Source: a virus. Taken from it: a stretch of 24,132 nt of DNA. Positions 4,582 through 10,960 of this stretch are shown here, one piece after another. The notes under the pieces are model-generated. The model did no database searches. It saw nothing but the letters and a program-made list of their open reading frames with translations, and was not told where the DNA came from. The stretch lies in the IMG/VR virus record IMGVR_UViG_3300025645_000439, positions 1-24,132 of that record; one strand, given 5' to 3'. Numbering within the stretch: position 1 is the first letter of the stretch; every line of letters starts with the position of its first letter. Made by a program: the position numbers and the translations under genes.

Positions 4582-5817
4582 ATGGAGTTATTCGGATTTG
4601 AAATCGGACGTGCAAAAACATTGGACAATGTGGTTGTGAAACAAAAAGAAGTGGAACGCATAATTGAGCGAATCACCCGTTCACAATTGCAAAGGTCAAA
4701 ACAAGACATTGGAATTTGGCGGAGCGCAATAAATCAAAGCGAATCCGCAATGAATCCAAAACGAACCGAATTAATAAAGACATTCAAGGACGTTGTTTTG
4801 GACGCGCATTTGTCGTCGTTAATTCAAACCCGGATTTTAAAAGTTGTCGGACACGATTTTTCGGTTGTTGATTCAGACGGCGAAATTGACATTGAAAAAA
4901 CAAAATTATTTCGGGACGAATGGTTTGAAAAGTTTGTCAATATATCAATGGAATCAATTTTTTGGGGTTACTCATTAATTCAATTCGGGGCGTTGGTTGA
5001 CGACAAATTCGAATCGGTTGAATCCGTACCACGGGAATATATTATTCCGGAAAAAAGGGGCGTAATGAAAAGAATGTCCGATTCAAATAATTTAATATAT
5101 TTTGACGAAAAGCCATTTAAACAATGGTTGATTTTTTTAGATTCCAACGGTTTGGGTTTACTCAATAAAGCAACACCGCACGCGATTTGGAAGAAAAACG
5201 CGGTTGGAAGTTGGGCTGAATACGTCGAAAAATACGGTCAACCAACAAGGGTTGGAAAAACGCATTCGAGCAACAAAGCGAACCGGGAAAACCTGGAATC
5301 AATGTTGGCAAATATGGGGTCGAATGGTTGGGCGGTTTTTGACAACGACGACGAATTGCAATTTTTGGAAACGAGCAAAACCGACGCACACTCTGTTTTT
5401 AACGAAATGGTTTCATTGTGTAATTCTGAAATGTCAAAATTGATTGTTGGTCAAACGATGACATCGGACAACGGGTCGTCAAGGTCGCAAGCAACGGTTC
5501 ACGAAAACATTTTGAACGATTATTTCAAACACGATTTAATGTACATTTCAAACATTGTCAACAATAAATTGATTCCTTTAATGGTTGACAAAGGCGTTGC
5601 GCTGGAGGGGTTTACATTCGAGTGGGACACGTCCGAAAAAATGTCAATAAGCCAACAATTCGCCATTGATAACGAACTATTAAAAACCTACACAATACAA
5701 CCGGAATATTTTATTGAAAAATACGGTGTTCCCGTTGAAACAAAACAAAACGATATAAACGACCCAACCGCAACAAATGTGTATTTCAAAAACTCAATTT
5801 CAAAGTATTACGAATAA
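4582..5817 (+). CDS. Portal protein, Mu gp29-like (DUF935)
   Basis: 411 residues. Signature segments of the DUF935 portal family are present: the N-terminal RTELIKTFKDVVLDAHL region, FWGYSLIQFG, then the highly characteristic W-x-E-Y-V-E-K-Y-G-Q-P-T-R-V-G-K followed by LANMGSNGWAVFDNDDELQFLE, and VGQTMTSD with a nearby RSQATVH. Portals form the dodecameric ring at one vertex through which terminase pumps DNA and to which the neck binds. The family is usually somewhat longer, so this is a compact member. It starts 3 bp after the gp36-like gene, and its 3' end overlaps the MuF-like gene by 41 bp in another frame. Confidence 0.92.
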   Translation: MELFGFEIGRAKTLDNVVVKQKEVERIIERITRSQLQRSKQDIGIWRSAINQSESAMNPKRTELIKTFKDVVLDAHLSSLIQTRILKVVGHDFSVVDSDGEIDIEKTKLFRDEWFEKFVNISMESIFWGYSLIQFGALVDDKFESVESVPREYIIPEKRGVMKRMSDSNNLIYFDEKPFKQWLIFLDSNGLGLLNKATPHAIWKKNAVGSWAEYVEKYGQPTRVGKTHSSNKANRENLESMLANMGSNGWAVFDNDDELQFLETSKTDAHSVFNEMVSLCNSEMSKLIVGQTMTSDNGSSRSQATVHENILNDYFKHDLMYISNIVNNKLIPLMVDKGVALEGFTFEWDTSEKMSISQQFAIDNELLKTYTIQPEYFIEKYGVPVETKQNDINDPTATNVYFKNSISKYYE

Positions 5818-7483
5818 GAGAACGGACGAAATCGTTTCATTGTATTATTCCGGATTTAGCAAAAATTCATTTGCCGGGTTGGTCAATGAAGTTGTCCCGG
5901 ATTTTGACGAATTGTTCAGCGACGACGAAATTGAAACGTTGTCGGCGTCCATTTTTAACGGGGTCACGACATTGGATAATATGCCAACCGGCGTTTATAT
6001 GAAAATCGGTTCAATCCTTGAAAACGCGGTGTTTACGGGGTTCAATGGAACACCTTTAGACTTTGCGATTGAATCACCGGCGTTTGATATGGTAGAAAGT
6101 TTACGTCAGTCAACGTGGGTGTTTTCCGGAGCGAAAACAAGTTCGCAAATATTAGAAATTCAGTCAAAAATATTTGACGAAAAAGGATTTAAACGTCCTT
6201 ATTCAGAATTTAAAAAGGACGCAAAACAAATCTTTGAAACACACAACAAACATTGGTTGCAAGCCGAACACCAAACCGCAATCGCACAAAGTCGTTCGGC
6301 GTCGCAATGGTTGGAAATTGTGGACGGTGGGTTGGAGCTGCTACAATATCAAACGATTGGGGACGGTGTGGTGCGTCCGGAACACGTTAAGTTGGACAAT
6401 ATAGTCAAACCGGTTGATTCGCCATTTTGGGACACGTTTTTCCCCCCGAATGGTTGGCGTTGCCGTTGCGATGTTTTAGAATTGGAAACCGGCGACGCGG
6501 AAATCACGGAAACAAACGACAAAGAATTGACGGAGGAAACGCACCCGTTGTTTCGAATGAATCCAGGAAAAGACAAAATTGTTTTCAGTCCGGAACACCC
6601 CTATTTTGAATTAAAAGGGGTTAACGAACGTTTCAAAGTTTTGGCAAAAAAGAATTTCAACCTACCGATTCCGCCCCCAATGGTCCGACAAATACCGGTC
6701 AAGGTTGCACCGCCGAAAATAGATATTCCAAAAACAAAAAAACAATTAAGCATCGAAAAGGAAACAAAAGAGTTGTTTGAAAAAGTTGTTCCGGATAATT
6801 ATGTTTCCGATTGGGGCGCGGAAATGCCGAATGAGTTTTGGAAGTTATTAAAAAACAAACCAAAATTAAAAATATTACCAACCAACAAGGCATATTGTGA
6901 CAACGATGGAATGTTGGTCGCATTAGGAAAGCCGGAAATTTCACCACGTTGGAACACACCATATTTGAAGAAAAAAATCGTTGCACACGAATTTGGTCAC
7001 GCAATCCACGACCAAACAAAAGAAATTGCAATTTCTTTTAATTCTGAAATGAAATTGGTCGGACGTGGAAAACCGGAATTTGAATCTTTTTTTGAAAAAT
7101 CACAAAAACAAATCGGATTTGGTGGTCGGAAATTATCGGATAAAAAATTGCAGTCGGATTTGGGGCGACAAATAAATGAAATTTATAAGAAAAATAAAAT
7201 GGCGTTTTATGACGATTTGTTCGAAAATAAATATAGTCCAAACGAAATAAAGGAAATGATGTCGGCAACATTTGACCACATCGGCGGTTTGACAAATGGA
7301 AAGTTTGGTGGTGGTCACGATATTTCGTATTATAGAGCGAATAGTGGTGTTGGTGGTCGTTGGGAAGTTTGGGCGCATAGTTCGGAAAATTATTTCGTTG
7401 GAAATGAATTGTTCAAATATGAATTTCCGGAGTTGTACGAATTATCAATCGAATATATTGAAAATTTTATCAAAAGACAATAA
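5777..7483 (+). CDS. MuF-like minor head protein fused to a zinc-metallopeptidase-like domain
   Basis: 568 residues from the ATG at 5777, inside the portal gene; no other good start precedes the conserved region. Residues about 60-290 are the Mu gpF / SPP1 gp7 head morphogenesis domain, with the signature D196-G-V-V-R-P-E-H203 and FWDTFFPPNGWRCRC ending at C229/C231. A proline-rich linker (297-320) follows. Residues 325-568 form a separate domain with the zincin motif H404-E405-F406-G407-H408 inside VAHEFGHAIHD, then FDHIGGLTNGKFGGGHD (D500-H514) and WEVWAHSSENYF (E530 or E537 could be the third zinc ligand). The MuF part would sit inside or near the portal. The extra domain could process capsid proteins or be carried into the host as an effector. 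C-terminal enzymatic fusions to MuF are a known theme of phage polymorphic toxins. The gene is followed after 4 bp by a 58-aa gene. Confidence 0.88.
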   Translation: MCISKTQFQSITNKRTDEIVSLYYSGFSKNSFAGLVNEVVPDFDELFSDDEIETLSASIFNGVTTLDNMPTGVYMKIGSILENAVFTGFNGTPLDFAIESPAFDMVESLRQSTWVFSGAKTSSQILEIQSKIFDEKGFKRPYSEFKKDAKQIFETHNKHWLQAEHQTAIAQSRSASQWLEIVDGGLELLQYQTIGDGVVRPEHVKLDNIVKPVDSPFWDTFFPPNGWRCRCDVLELETGDAEITETNDKELTEETHPLFRMNPGKDKIVFSPEHPYFELKGVNERFKVLAKKNFNLPIPPPMVRQIPVKVAPPKIDIPKTKKQLSIEKETKELFEKVVPDNYVSDWGAEMPNEFWKLLKNKPKLKILPTNKAYCDNDGMLVALGKPEISPRWNTPYLKKKIVAHEFGHAIHDQTKEIAISFNSEMKLVGRGKPEFESFFEKSQKQIGFGGRKLSDKKLQSDLGRQINEIYKKNKMAFYDDLFENKYSPNEIKEMMSATFDHIGGLTNGKFGGGHDISYYRANSGVGGRWEVWAHSSENYFVGNELFKYEFPELYELSIEYIENFIKRQ

Positions 7484-8107: not shown

Positions 8108-8620
8108 ATGTCAGTAAAAGCCTTATATTCAGCCATTAAAACAAAAATAGAAACGGACGTTCCGGAAATTAAAACGGTGCGATTGTACAACAACCAATTC
8201 GACAAAGACAACGTTGAAATGGCGTTTCCTTATCCGTGTTTATTTATAGAATTTACGTCGATTGAGTGGGAAAACGAACACGCCGGAATTTCGAGTTCGT
8301 CGGTTGCAATTGCGTTTCATATTGGGTTTCAATCATTGGAAAACGAAAACATTGATTTCCTTGACACAACGCAAAAAGTATTCAACACATTAAACGGATT
8401 TACAAACGAAAAATGGTCGCCAATGATACGGACATCAGAGCAACAAGATACCGACCACGGGAACGTGTGGGTGTGGATTCAAAATTGGTTCGTTGACAAA
8501 TTGATTGATTGTTCCGGATTCATTTATAAAAACAACCAAACCGTCACCGTCAACACGTTGGAATTCACCGCGGAATTGGACGTTGACAATTTGGTCATTC
8601 GTACGGGTGACGGTCAATAA
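8108..8620 (+). CDS. Probable tail terminator / gp37-like structural protein
   Basis: 170 residues. An N-terminal helix (SVKALYSAIKTKIETDVPEIKTVRLYNNQ) is followed by a strand-rich core with FPYPCLFIEFTSIEWEN and SSVAIAFHIGFQ, a helix (LDTTQKVFNTLNGF), and C-terminal strands ending in TLEFTAELDVD. This pattern (P-x-x-F-I-E-F ... helix ... final strand) resembles small phage proteins encoded between gpG and the head protease, which include tail terminators that cap the tube. No catalytic motif is seen. Its last 7 bp overlap the end of the minus-strand HTH gene. The assignment is from fold pattern and position. Confidence 0.5.
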   Translation: MSVKALYSAIKTKIETDVPEIKTVRLYNNQFDKDNVEMAFPYPCLFIEFTSIEWENEHAGISSSSVAIAFHIGFQSLENENIDFLDTTQKVFNTLNGFTNEKWSPMIRTSEQQDTDHGNVWVWIQNWFVDKLIDCSGFIYKNNQTVTVNTLEFTAELDVDNLVIRTGDGQ

Positions 8621-8802
8621 GAATTTTTTTCGTTCCTTGGTTTATGGTACAACCAATTTTCAACCGTTCGCGGGTGACAAATGAATCGTTCGGACAATTC
8701 ATATATTATTCCCTGGATTTTTTCGCCGTTTTTCGTGCGCTCGTTGACTTCATTTTTTACGAAATCACGTTTCTTTTCAATGTATCGTTTTGGGTTGTCC
8801 AT
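8614..8802 (-). CDS. Small helix-turn-helix protein on the opposite strand
   Basis: 62 residues read on the minus strand from the ATG at 8802-8800 to the TGA at 8616-8614. A longer in-frame start at 8859 would pass through the promoter region and adds a cysteine/aromatic stretch unlike the rest, so I prefer 8802. The N-terminus is a charged helix (RYIEKKRDFVKNEVNERTKNG). Residues about 31-54 (IIYELSERFICHP-RTVENWLYHK) form a convincing helix-turn-helix, with RTVENWLY as the recognition helix. A Bacteroidota-type promoter lies immediately upstream. It is the only supported minus-strand gene in the window, so a small regulator, perhaps a repressor or activator of the capsid operon, is the natural guess. 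Its stop overlaps the convergent structural gene by 7 bp. Confidence 0.7.
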   Translation of the reverse strand: MDNPKRYIEKKRDFVKNEVNERTKNGEKIQGIIYELSERFICHPRTVENWLYHKPRNEKNSY

Positions 8803-8813
8803 AGTTTTTTTTA

Positions 8814-8844
8814 CAAAGATAAAACAATTCGTCCGAAAATACAA
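8814..8844 (-). promoter_or_regulatory. Bacteroidota-type promoter for the minus-strand HTH gene
   Basis: On the minus strand TTG (plus positions 8844-8842) is followed after 20 bp by TATCTTTG (8821-8814). This is a full match to the TAnnTTTG -7 element of Bacteroidota, with a -33 TTG at a suitable distance. The start codon at 8802 lies 11 bp after the -7 box, so the transcript would be leaderless or carry only a few bases before the ATG. Confidence 0.6.
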
Positions 8845-8864
8845 TTGCCACGGTGTCAAATTGT
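8841..8864. promoter_or_regulatory. Operator-like dyad between divergent promoters
   Basis: The arms ACAATTGCCAC (8841-8851) and GTGTCAAATTGT (8853-8864) are inverted repeats with one bulged base and one mismatch. The dyad covers the -33 TTG of the minus-strand promoter (8842-8844) and reaches the first base of the candidate plus-strand -33 TTG (8864-8866). A protein bound here could control both directions. The neighbouring HTH protein is the obvious candidate, by inference. Confidence 0.4.
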
Positions 8865-8894
8865 TGGTAATTCGTTAAAATAGTTTCAAATTTG
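8864..8894 (+). promoter_or_regulatory. Candidate promoter for the protease-capsid operon
   Basis: TTG (8864-8866), a 20-bp spacer, then CAAATTTG (8887-8894), one base off the TAnnTTTG consensus. The ATG of the head protease follows 5 bp later, implying a leaderless or nearly leaderless mRNA. The spacing equals that of the opposite promoter. The assignment is weak because of the mismatch at the first -7 base and the very short leader. Confidence 0.3.
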
Positions 8895-8899
8895 AGCAA

Positions 8900-9988
8900 A
8901 TGAAAGATTTATATTTATACGACGCAATTACAACGGATTCCGCAACAAAAATTCACAACGAAATATTGGGTGCTGAAATGGACGGCGAAAACGAAATTAC
9001 AATCAATATTAATTCGGTTGGCGGTTCAATTTTTGCCGGTTGGTCAATCATTTCGACAATGTTGTCAAAACAAAATGCGGGAATGATAATAAACACCCAC
9101 GTTTCCGGAATTGGCGGTTCAATGGGGGGTGTTGTTGCAATGTTTGGGAACAATGTATCAATGAATGATTTTGCGTTGCTTATGATACACAATCCGTCGT
9201 TTGGAGGTCAACAACCAACCAATCCGGCGGAACGAATTGTCATTGATAAAATAAAAAATTCATTAATCACTATATTTTCCGGACGTCGTGGAATGGATAA
9301 AAACACAATCGCAAACGTAATGTCAGCGGAAACGTGGTTTGATTCGTCCGACGCAATGGAATTTGGATTGGTTGACAATATAGTCAATACCGGAACGGCA
9401 ATACAAATCGAGAATAAAACATTTGATTATATTTATAATATGGTCAATTCTTTAATAGTAAAAACAAAACCAAAAACAGAAATGAAAGAAATTACAAACG
9501 TATTAGGCATTGCCGAAACCGACAACGAATCGGTTGTTGTTGAGGCAATCGAAAATAAAATTGGAGCGTTCGAAACAACGATTGTTGAAAAGGACGGACA
9601 AATTGTTGAATTAACAAATTCAATAACGGAAATGACCGAAAAATTAACAAACAACGACGCATTAATTGTTGAGTTAAAAACAAAAATTGCTGAAATTGTA
9701 GTGAATGAAGCAATTGCAAACGGTAAAATCGACGCAACATCAAAAAATGTTTGGGTTGAAATGGCGGTTAACGATATGGAAAAAACCGTTGGGTTGATTG
9801 CGTCGTTTAAATCGCAACCGGCAAACATTATCAACCAATTAGTTGTTGATAAAACAGAGGAAAAGAAAATGACATTTAAGGAAATGAGTAAAAACGACCC
9901 CAAAGGATTGCAAAATCTTATGAACAATGATTGGGAAAAATACTCAAATCTTTACAAAGAACAATACGGTGTTGCACCGGCGAAATAA
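8900..9988 (+). CDS. ClpP-like head maturation protease with C-terminal scaffold domain
   Basis: 362 residues. Residues 1-185 are a ClpP/crotonase-like serine protease: NSVGGSIFAGWSI (oxyanion loop region), the nucleophile S74 in GIGGSMGG, H97 in LLMIHNPS, and the usual ETWFDSSDAMEFGLVD segment near 145-160. Residues about 195-362 form a charged helical region with coiled-coil character (ETTIVEKDGQIVELTNSITEM and onward), ending in LQNLMNNDWEKYSNLYKEQYGV. This is the layout of phage protease-scaffold fusions. The protein would template the procapsid and then degrade the scaffold. An in-frame ATG at 9482 (M195), preceded by an A-rich leader, could produce the scaffold alone, as Mu gene Z does inside gene I. 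Confidence 0.88.
   Translation: MKDLYLYDAITTDSATKIHNEILGAEMDGENEITININSVGGSIFAGWSIISTMLSKQNAGMIINTHVSGIGGSMGGVVAMFGNNVSMNDFALLMIHNPSFGGQQPTNPAERIVIDKIKNSLITIFSGRRGMDKNTIANVMSAETWFDSSDAMEFGLVDNIVNTGTAIQIENKTFDYIYNMVNSLIVKTKPKTEMKEITNVLGIAETDNESVVVEAIENKIGAFETTIVEKDGQIVELTNSITEMTEKLTNNDALIVELKTKIAEIVVNEAIANGKIDATSKNVWVEMAVNDMEKTVGLIASFKSQPANIINQLVVDKTEEKKMTFKEMSKNDPKGLQNLMNNDWEKYSNLYKEQYGVAPAK
9482..9988 (+). CDS. Possible nested scaffold protein (internal start in protease gene)
   Basis: An in-frame ATG at 9482 gives a 168-residue product comprising only the helical scaffold part of the head protease gene. It is preceded by AAAACAAAACCAAAAACAGA, an A-rich leader like those before most starts in the window. 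Nested scaffold genes are established in Mu (Z in I) and lambda (Nu3 in C). Another in-frame ATG at 9440 is possible but comes before the linker. There is no direct proof of internal initiation. Confidence 0.35.
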   Translation: MKEITNVLGIAETDNESVVVEAIENKIGAFETTIVEKDGQIVELTNSITEMTEKLTNNDALIVELKTKIAEIVVNEAIANGKIDATSKNVWVEMAVNDMEKTVGLIASFKSQPANIINQLVVDKTEEKKMTFKEMSKNDPKGLQNLMNNDWEKYSNLYKEQYGVAPAK

Positions 9989-10039: not shown

Positions 10040-10960
10040 ATGGCAATTCAAAAAGAAGTTTGGTTGGATTTAATCCAGGACAATTTGTATAAGGGTCAAG
10101 AATTTATGACAATGTCAGTGAATTTGGATTCAGAAGTTGGAAACAAAACGGTTCACATTCCACAAAGCGGGGCGAATCCGTCGGTTGAAAAAAATAGGTC
10201 GTCATTCCCGGCGTCAATAACTGAAAGAACGGACACGTTGTTGTCATTCGGTTTAGACAATTACACAACCGACCCAATAAGAGTTCGAAGACTTGAGGAA
10301 TTACAAACAAGTTACAACAAAATGGAATCGGTTATGGGGTCACACCTTGCGGTTTTGAACGAAAGAATGGGGGACGAAACCGCATATGCGTGGGCGCCAA
10401 CAACGGACGCAACATTGGTATTAAGAACAACCGGTTCAGCGTCCGCGTTAAACCTACCAAACGCAACGGCAACGGGTACGCGTTTAATCGTTACAAAAGA
10501 CGACATTAAGAGAATGGCGCAAAAATTAGATAAAGACAATATGCCGAAAAACGGTCGTAAATTGTTAATGCCGGTTGATATGTATTACGAATTATTCAGC
10601 GATGCGGATTTGTTATCTACTGAAAAAATGGGTCAATTAGCATTGCCAAATGGTGTTGTAAACAGATTATTCGGTTTTGATATAATGGTAAGGTCAACGG
10701 TTGTTTTATACAACGAAGTTGTTGCGGGTGTTAAAAAGGCAATTGGTTCAGCGGACGCAATAACGGATTGTTACGGGGCAATTGCCTGGTCGGAATTTTC
10801 GGTGTGTAAAGCATTAAGCGATACGGAGGTTTTTGCAAACCTTGGGGTTGCTGAAAATTACGGCGATATTATTTCGGCGGAATTGAATTTTGGGGCGTCG
10901 GTTATGCGTTCGGATTTCAAAGGAGTTGTTGCATTGGCGCAAGGTTACGTTGCCGCTTAA
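10040..10960 (+). CDS. Major capsid protein (HK97 fold)
   Basis: 306 residues, following the protease-scaffold gene in the standard head order. The sequence has an N-terminal segment MAIQKEVWLDLIQDNLYKGQEFM, a strand-rich E-loop-like region (VNLDSEVGNKTVHIPQSG), a long spine-like helix (RVRRLEELQTSYNKMESVMGSHLAVLNERMGDE), and a C-terminal half rich in small residues and strands (AIAWSEFSVCKALSD ... NFGASVMRSDF), all consistent with HK97-type capsid subunits. It would be the most abundant virion protein. The 51-bp leader is A-rich, and a strong intrinsic terminator follows 11 bp after the stop. No N-terminal pro-peptide is obvious because the scaffold is encoded separately. Confidence 0.85.
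   Translation: MAIQKEVWLDLIQDNLYKGQEFMTMSVNLDSEVGNKTVHIPQSGANPSVEKNRSSFPASITERTDTLLSFGLDNYTTDPIRVRRLEELQTSYNKMESVMGSHLAVLNERMGDETAYAWAPTTDATLVLRTTGSASALNLPNATATGTRLIVTKDDIKRMAQKLDKDNMPKNGRKLLMPVDMYYELFSDADLLSTEKMGQLALPNGVVNRLFGFDIMVRSTVVLYNEVVAGVKKAIGSADAITDCYGAIAWSEFSVCKALSDTEVFANLGVAENYGDIISAELNFGASVMRSDFKGVVALAQGYVAA

Follow-up and report, generated by a model that had tools for sequence, protein, structure and literature searches.

A conserved helix-turn-helix gene beside the protease-capsid promoter, a candidate local regulator of the virion operon in Bacteroidota contractile phages

We analysed a stretch of 24,132 nucleotides (hereafter the window; positions 1 to 24,132 of the IMG/VR virus record IMGVR_UViG_3300025645_000439), whose gene content marks it as the structural part of a Mu-like contractile Bacteroidota phage, and found that a small helix-turn-helix (HTH) gene within it belongs, as judged from profile matches and gene position, to a conserved phage HTH family fixed in one slot, next to the promoter of the protease and capsid genes. 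From these comparisons, and by analogy with Ltr/RinA, we consider it rather probable that the HTH protein is a small local regulator of the adjacent virion operon and, where the two genes are divergent, of its own gene. Control of late genes in Bacteroidota phages is practically undescribed; the papers on phages pippi8-1 and Peternella mention neither "repressor" nor "transcriptional regulator". A conserved slot together with a defined target promoter makes a testable candidate for a late switch.

Results

Gene order of the window

The window has one near-identical contig (IMGVR_UViG_3300006920_000326), and its closest isolated phages by sheath and portal are Winoviridae phages of Flavobacterium, with sheath identities of 44% (pippi8-1/lotta8-1, Pippivirus) and 42% (FPSV-S1/S27). 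Its features are as follows.

From 289: TerS
From 2625: TerL
From 4582: Mu-type portal
5777-7483 (+): MuF head protein
From 7668: gpG/neck gene
8108-8620 (+): phrog_6911-like neck/tail gene, last in the upstream packaging-neck operon (phrog_6911, E 7.2e-21)
8614-8802 (-): HTH gene, 62 aa (ATG 8802, stop 8614-8616)
8814-8821 (-): -7 box TATCTTTG of the HTH promoter, a perfect TAnnTTTG
8842-8844 (-): -33-like TTG of the HTH promoter, separated from its -7 box by 20 nt
8841-8864: inverted repeat ACAATT-N12-AATTGT, proposed as an operator; at chance level and unconserved
8864-8866 (+): -33-like TTG of the protease promoter, N20 before CAAATTTG; not conserved in relatives
8887-8894 (+): -7 box CAAATTTG of the protease promoter, 5/6 matches, 5 nt before the start codon
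8900-9988 (+): ClpP-type prohead protease, extended at the C terminus by a scaffold-like part; it opens the head operon (Pfam CLP_protease, E 5.4e-24; phrog_2976, E 4.5e-35)
10040-10960 (+): major capsid protein (MCP), downstream in the same operon (phrog_267, E 1.6e-26)
From 11251: DUF2586 sheath

The HTH gene thus lies between the phrog_6911-like gene and the protease gene, on the opposite strand, and at its 3' end 7 nt are shared with the phrog_6911-like gene, which runs towards it. Further upstream, the MuF protein carries a C-terminal zinc-metallopeptidase-like extension (HEFGH motif, weak Peptidase_M78/M90 matches) that recalls MuF-fused effector domains.

The HTH gene and its protein

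The first-pass annotation of this DNA had described a 62-codon minus-strand open reading frame that opposes the structural operon and encodes an HTH protein, and both statements were borne out. The reading frame is present and has homologues; a dN/dS of 0.02-0.29 in the pippi group, i.e., strong purifying selection, argues that it encodes a real protein. The HTH assignment draws on homology to pippi8-1 gp33 and the FPSV-S27 protein, on an AlphaFold2 model with three helices (residues 4-24, 29-40 and 44-52; mean pLDDT 79.5, pTM 0.54), on weak Pfam HTH_11 matches in 10 of 14 family members and on a weak PDB profile match to SpoIIID; Foldseek with the model returned generic HTH proteins only, none at E <= 0.001.

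A single profile matches both the window protein (E 9e-26, the window sequence being among the rows of that profile) and its relatives (down to 4e-8). Pairwise E values against pippi8-1 gp33 and the FPSV-S27 protein are 1e-5 and 6e-6, at an identity of only 21-27%. In simpler searches, tblastn of the window HTH against phages gave no match. When viral contigs were searched with the HTH, protease or phrog_6911 protein of the window as a single sequence, only the near-identical contig was recovered, besides L003, an unrelated phage whose match (77% over 13 residues) was spurious. Profile A1 had no match in bacterial genome contigs. Relatives had to be reached by synteny through the sheath and portal genes.

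The slot before the protease gene in relatives

Loci came from annotated phages and from searches with the sheath profile, two in viral and one in bacterial genome contigs, and the 147 loci with a protease were reduced to 100 representatives below 90% protease identity. Fifty-eight representatives are termed plus-module here (packaging genes not opposed to the protease), and 42 have a divergent packaging arm led by TerS, an arrangement that occurs in Peternella_1, fF4, and Bacteroides and Porphyromonas phages. Enough upstream sequence for a judgement was available in 48 of the 58 plus-module loci. The HTH gene lies directly before the protease in 25 of these (18 divergent, 7 codirectional), and a small ribbon-helix-helix (RHH) gene occupies the same place in 16 (13 divergent, 3 codirectional). 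One or the other therefore fills the slot in 41/48 judgeable loci vs 0/42 TerS-divergent loci, counts that overstate independence, as the loci are phylogenetically related, and that rest on mechanically called starts. Seven loci have neither family directly in the slot, one of which (L171) has an HTH gene 874 nt away. Altogether, the HTH is present in 26 plus-module representatives, in 25 cases immediately ahead of the protease; neither profile, HTH or RHH, had a match below threshold elsewhere in the surveyed loci.

The two slot families are unrelated (hhalign probability 0.1%). As the RHH profile was built from slot proteins, its informative results are the absence of matches elsewhere and in the TerS group, and its similarity to CopG: in PDB profile comparisons it matches the CopG-family entry 9kkd (E 8e-5) and ORF56 (E 0.0026), and an AlphaFold2 model (pLDDT 91.5) has CopG (1b01/1ea4) as its best Foldseek matches (probability 0.94-0.97, TM 0.69-0.78). 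One 141-aa slot protein (L038:3692-4117, minus strand) appears to fuse an HTH domain with an RHH domain.

The surroundings of the slot vary. Many RHH phages have baseplate genes between phrog_6911 and the slot; hence, what the small gene accompanies is the protease promoter, not phrog_6911. In the codirectional HTH clade (L104, L019, L114, L115, L033 and L023), the HTH gene directly follows or overlaps the phrog_6911 gene, has no recognisable promoter of its own and is without a gp32-type gene (see below). In a sheath tree, which was built by a quick method, has a weak backbone and does not allow the direction of the orientation change to be read, this clade is sister to a divergent clade, and the six slot states need 10 changes vs 34.8 with shuffled labels, with 2 changes for HTH orientation and 3 for HTH vs RHH.

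Divergent promoters and a predicted leaderless protease mRNA

The elements found upstream of the two genes support a divergent promoter pair, as the first-pass annotation had described it, although not in every detail. On the minus strand, the TTG and the -7 box are present as described, and the box-to-start distance from Flavobacterium psychrophilum transcription start mapping (PMC9723704) places the predicted start at about 8809, with a leader of about 7 nt. The window holds 4 TTG-N19-21-TAnnTTTG elements vs 2.65 expected in shuffles, so that in DNA this AT-rich the minus promoter is unproven by the window alone. The TCTTT core of TATCTTTG is invariant across 11 aligned divergent loci and present in 10 of 12 loci checked, and by inspection a TTG or TTTG lies 19-20 nt from a box in several relatives. 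Within the pippi group, the exact start of HTH transcription is uncertain, since the best minus box there may be TTA(A/T)TTTG, a few nucleotides upstream. A sigma-70 promoter scan gave no excess, as expected for Bacteroidota.

On the plus strand, the proposed TTG-N20-CAAATTTG element is present, and its -7 box is the conserved part. A box with at least 5/6 matches precedes the start codon of the protease by exactly 4 or 5 nt in 31 of 56 plus-module loci (12 perfect), some of the negatives being contigs cut within the protease or mis-called starts (L106, L134). Control genes of the same phages, given the same freedom of start choice, have it in 6/166 cases (MCP 0/49, sheath 2/58, phrog_6911 2/26, gpG 2/23, portal 0/10; Fisher p 7.7e-17), and the protease genes of the TerS-divergent group in 3/42 (p 3.7e-7). 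Phages with a divergent HTH, a codirectional HTH or an RHH gene all retain the box, and in most divergent loci checked the gap between the HTH and protease starts is 69-77 nt. The -33 TTG, by contrast, is not conserved, which agrees with the promoters of F. johnsoniae, in which a -33 motif was likewise not found (PMC7366714).

The TAnnTTTG box of F. psychrophilum lies at -12 to -5, and leaderless transcripts make up just 5.5% of its mRNAs (PMC9723704). A box at these positions that ends 4 nt before the start codon would give a leaderless transcript. At the spacing of 4-5 nt, +1 falls on or next to the protease start codon, and the head-operon mRNA should therefore be leaderless or nearly so; in the window, with its 5/6 box at 5 nt, the predicted start at 8899 leaves a 1-nt leader before the ATG at 8900. 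Leaderless mRNAs of the capsid operon are thus to be expected in hosts that otherwise make few of them.

The slot in pippi8-1 and FPSV-S27

The isolated phages pippi8-1/lotta8-1 and FPSV-S27 share with the window the gene order, a homologous minus-strand HTH gene flanked by the phrog_6911 and protease genes, and, 4-5 nt ahead of the protease start, a TAATATTG box. Their HTH genes encode 60 aa (pippi8-1 gp33) and 64 aa (FPSV-S27), and the proteins are homologous, with 60% identity over 52 aa. Two elements of pippi8-1 and FPSV-S27 are missing from the window, namely gp32, a further gene on the minus strand, and a terminator. The gp32-type gene, also present in relatives, comes right after the HTH gene (pippi8-1, L006:6824-7333, minus strand, 169 aa; FPSV-S27, L007:8007-8507, minus strand, 166 aa); its products are related to each other (E 9e-11), and no Pfam family was found for them. 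The terminator, which is strong and in FPSV-S27 bidirectional, parts the HTH-gp32 pair from the upstream operon. Upstream of the HTH genes, GTCTTTA is repeated in tandem at a distance of 11 bp, in part within the HTH promoter (L006 7497-7535 in pippi8-1, L007 8687-8725 in FPSV-S27); this is possibly a direct-repeat operator, though only a lead, because other relatives have the repeat in degenerate form and because it coincides in part with the promoter box. FPSV-S27 further carries a Dcm-type DNA methylase gene (L007:6072-6986, plus strand) within the neck part of its structural operon, just before the gpG-like gene.

This arrangement invites another reading, namely that the slot is a moron or cargo site and that the HTH, which gp32 accompanies in the pippi and FPSV phages, is an accessory insert between two late operons, expressed independently and regulating its own cassette only. 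The pairing with a gene of no known function, the terminator that sets the pair apart and the HTH's own promoter in divergent loci would all fit. The window and the codirectional clade, however, lack gp32, and in the latter the HTH gene is joined directly to the phrog_6911 gene; moreover, the presence of another DNA-binding fold in the same slot and the retention of the HTH in headless clusters (see below) would not be expected of random cargo. We regard this reading as unlikely, but as the best placed of the alternatives.

The HTH in headless tail clusters of Flavobacterium

The HTH profile matches 30 of 299 Flavobacterium genomes, about 22 of them in a short open reading frame of 58-91 aa. 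In 19 of 20 loci examined, the HTH gene lies codirectionally ahead of a contractile sheath gene, and in five 20-kb regions no match to TerL, portal, protease or capsid was found, one of them (L199) being also without a sheath match. One perfect TAnnTTTG box follows the HTH stop codon in 19/19 loci (57-59 nt away in 18, 34 nt in one), against 2.3 expected in total, many of these loci being close relatives and not independent. That the HTH and the box are kept in headless clusters indicates that the HTH associates with the next virion-operon promoter, whatever gene follows, and the slot thereby links phages to chromosomal tail clusters. The clusters in L175-L198 (e.g., L195:2307-7050) begin with a divergent CI-like repressor gene, followed by a phrog_6911-like gene, the HTH, the sheath and tail genes. 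They are probably tailocins, present in roughly 7% of sampled Flavobacterium species; a literature search found no published description of them.

The same clusters bear on the notion that the HTH is a small DNA-binding protein of virion assembly or packaging (a TerS-like helper or head protein) and not a transcription regulator. Its place among the head genes, the occupation of the slot by TerS, also an HTH protein, in the Peternella-type arrangement, and a faint profile similarity to TerS N-termini (hhalign probability 23%) point that way, a similarity too weak for us to accept the HTH as a relocated TerS. A separate TerS is nevertheless present in the window, FPSV-S27 and pippi8-1, the HTH is kept where protease and capsid genes are absent, and it is replaced elsewhere by CopG-like RHH proteins, which are mostly transcription repressors. 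Hence, we hold a role in assembly or packaging to be improbable.

The inverted repeat between the two genes

The first-pass annotation had also seen in the inverted repeat an operator shared by both promoters. It consists of two 6-bp arms only, with 12 nt between them; when the 97 bp between the genes were shuffled by dinucleotides, the shuffles contained a mean of 1.95 such dyads and at least one in 72% of cases, the whole window contains 252, and relatives lack it, and so we rejected it as an operator. Of the two features whose conservation in relatives had been proposed as the test, the HTH gene and the dyad, the gene is thus conserved, as is the promoter pair, and the dyad is not. In an alignment of the pippi group only the promoter boxes stand out, with no conserved operator, and inspection revealed no operator motif that the divergent and codirectional clades share; the boxes stand back to back in the window and in divergent relatives, but share no conserved operator. 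That the HTH is an autorepressor shutting off both divergent promoters through this dyad is accordingly the least probable reading, very doubtful in spite of the promoter pair and its conserved architecture, given the dyad's chance-level occurrence and a codirectional clade without a divergent promoter.

Discussion

We favour the reading of the HTH as a local regulator of the virion operon. The HTH protein would bind the short region between the HTH and protease starts and would set when or how strongly protease, scaffold and capsid are transcribed; in loci with divergent promoters, it would also regulate its own gene. In the window and about two thirds of HTH loci the HTH gene has its own back-to-back promoter; in another clade it forms the end of the upstream operon. 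In this respect, the compact switch proposed by the first-pass annotation survives in part: the linkage of the HTH to the protease-capsid promoter is strong, but the divergent geometry is not essential, because one clade carries the HTH codirectionally and without a recognisable promoter of its own. The local regulator is favoured by the persistence of the slot despite the HTH flip, the RHH replacement and the changed module order around it; against it stand the seven judgeable loci with neither family directly in the slot and the failure to find a conserved operator, and an insertion hotspot could by itself account for the adjacency. Most RHH proteins are repressors, Ltr/RinA proteins are activators, and the HTH, as a promoter-adjacent late regulator, may equally well be either.

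More broadly, we speculate, at about even odds, that Bacteroidota contractile phages and their tail-only derivatives possess a late-regulator slot, in which unrelated small DNA-binding proteins (HTH, CopG-like RHH, or the HTH-RHH fusion of the L038 type) are swapped and flipped while a leaderless, -7-only virion promoter is kept. If true, this would be the first late-gene switch described for Bacteroidota contractile phages.

Comparison with known systems

Compared with the sigma-A promoters of Bacteroidota, the plus and minus boxes of the window fit the TAnnTTTG -7 consensus, with the -33 element weak or absent as in F. johnsoniae (PMC7366714); they differ in that the phage protease box lies 4-5 nt from the start codon, which predicts a leaderless mRNA, a small fraction of the mRNAs in F. 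psychrophilum (PMC9723704). Among regulators, the CopG/Arc RHH repressors resemble the slot RHH of more distant relatives, which fits CopG by profile and predicted structure; their fold is other than that of the window HTH protein, to which they are not homologous. A further parallel is offered by Ltr/RinA, small proteins of staphylococcal and other Gram-positive phages whose genes lie directly upstream of the promoter of the late (packaging/structural) operon, in a slot filled by several families without mutual sequence similarity (PMC13123087). The likeness lies in a small protein gene directly upstream of a late promoter and in unrelated families sharing one slot, and the window HTH agrees with Ltr/RinA/ArpU by position only: no RinA/ArpU-type NCBIfam or Pfam model is among its matches up to E 1, and phrog_836, "late transcriptional activator", reaches only E 0.036, in 3/14 HTH members. 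The Ltr/RinA proteins, in turn, activate the late promoter through repeats, have about 130 aa, belong to other sequence families and act at Gram-positive promoters, whereas many slot HTHs are divergent from their target promoter. As no homology to Ltr/RinA was found, we therefore regard the relationship as analogy and not membership, the HTH resembling these late regulators in where its gene stands.
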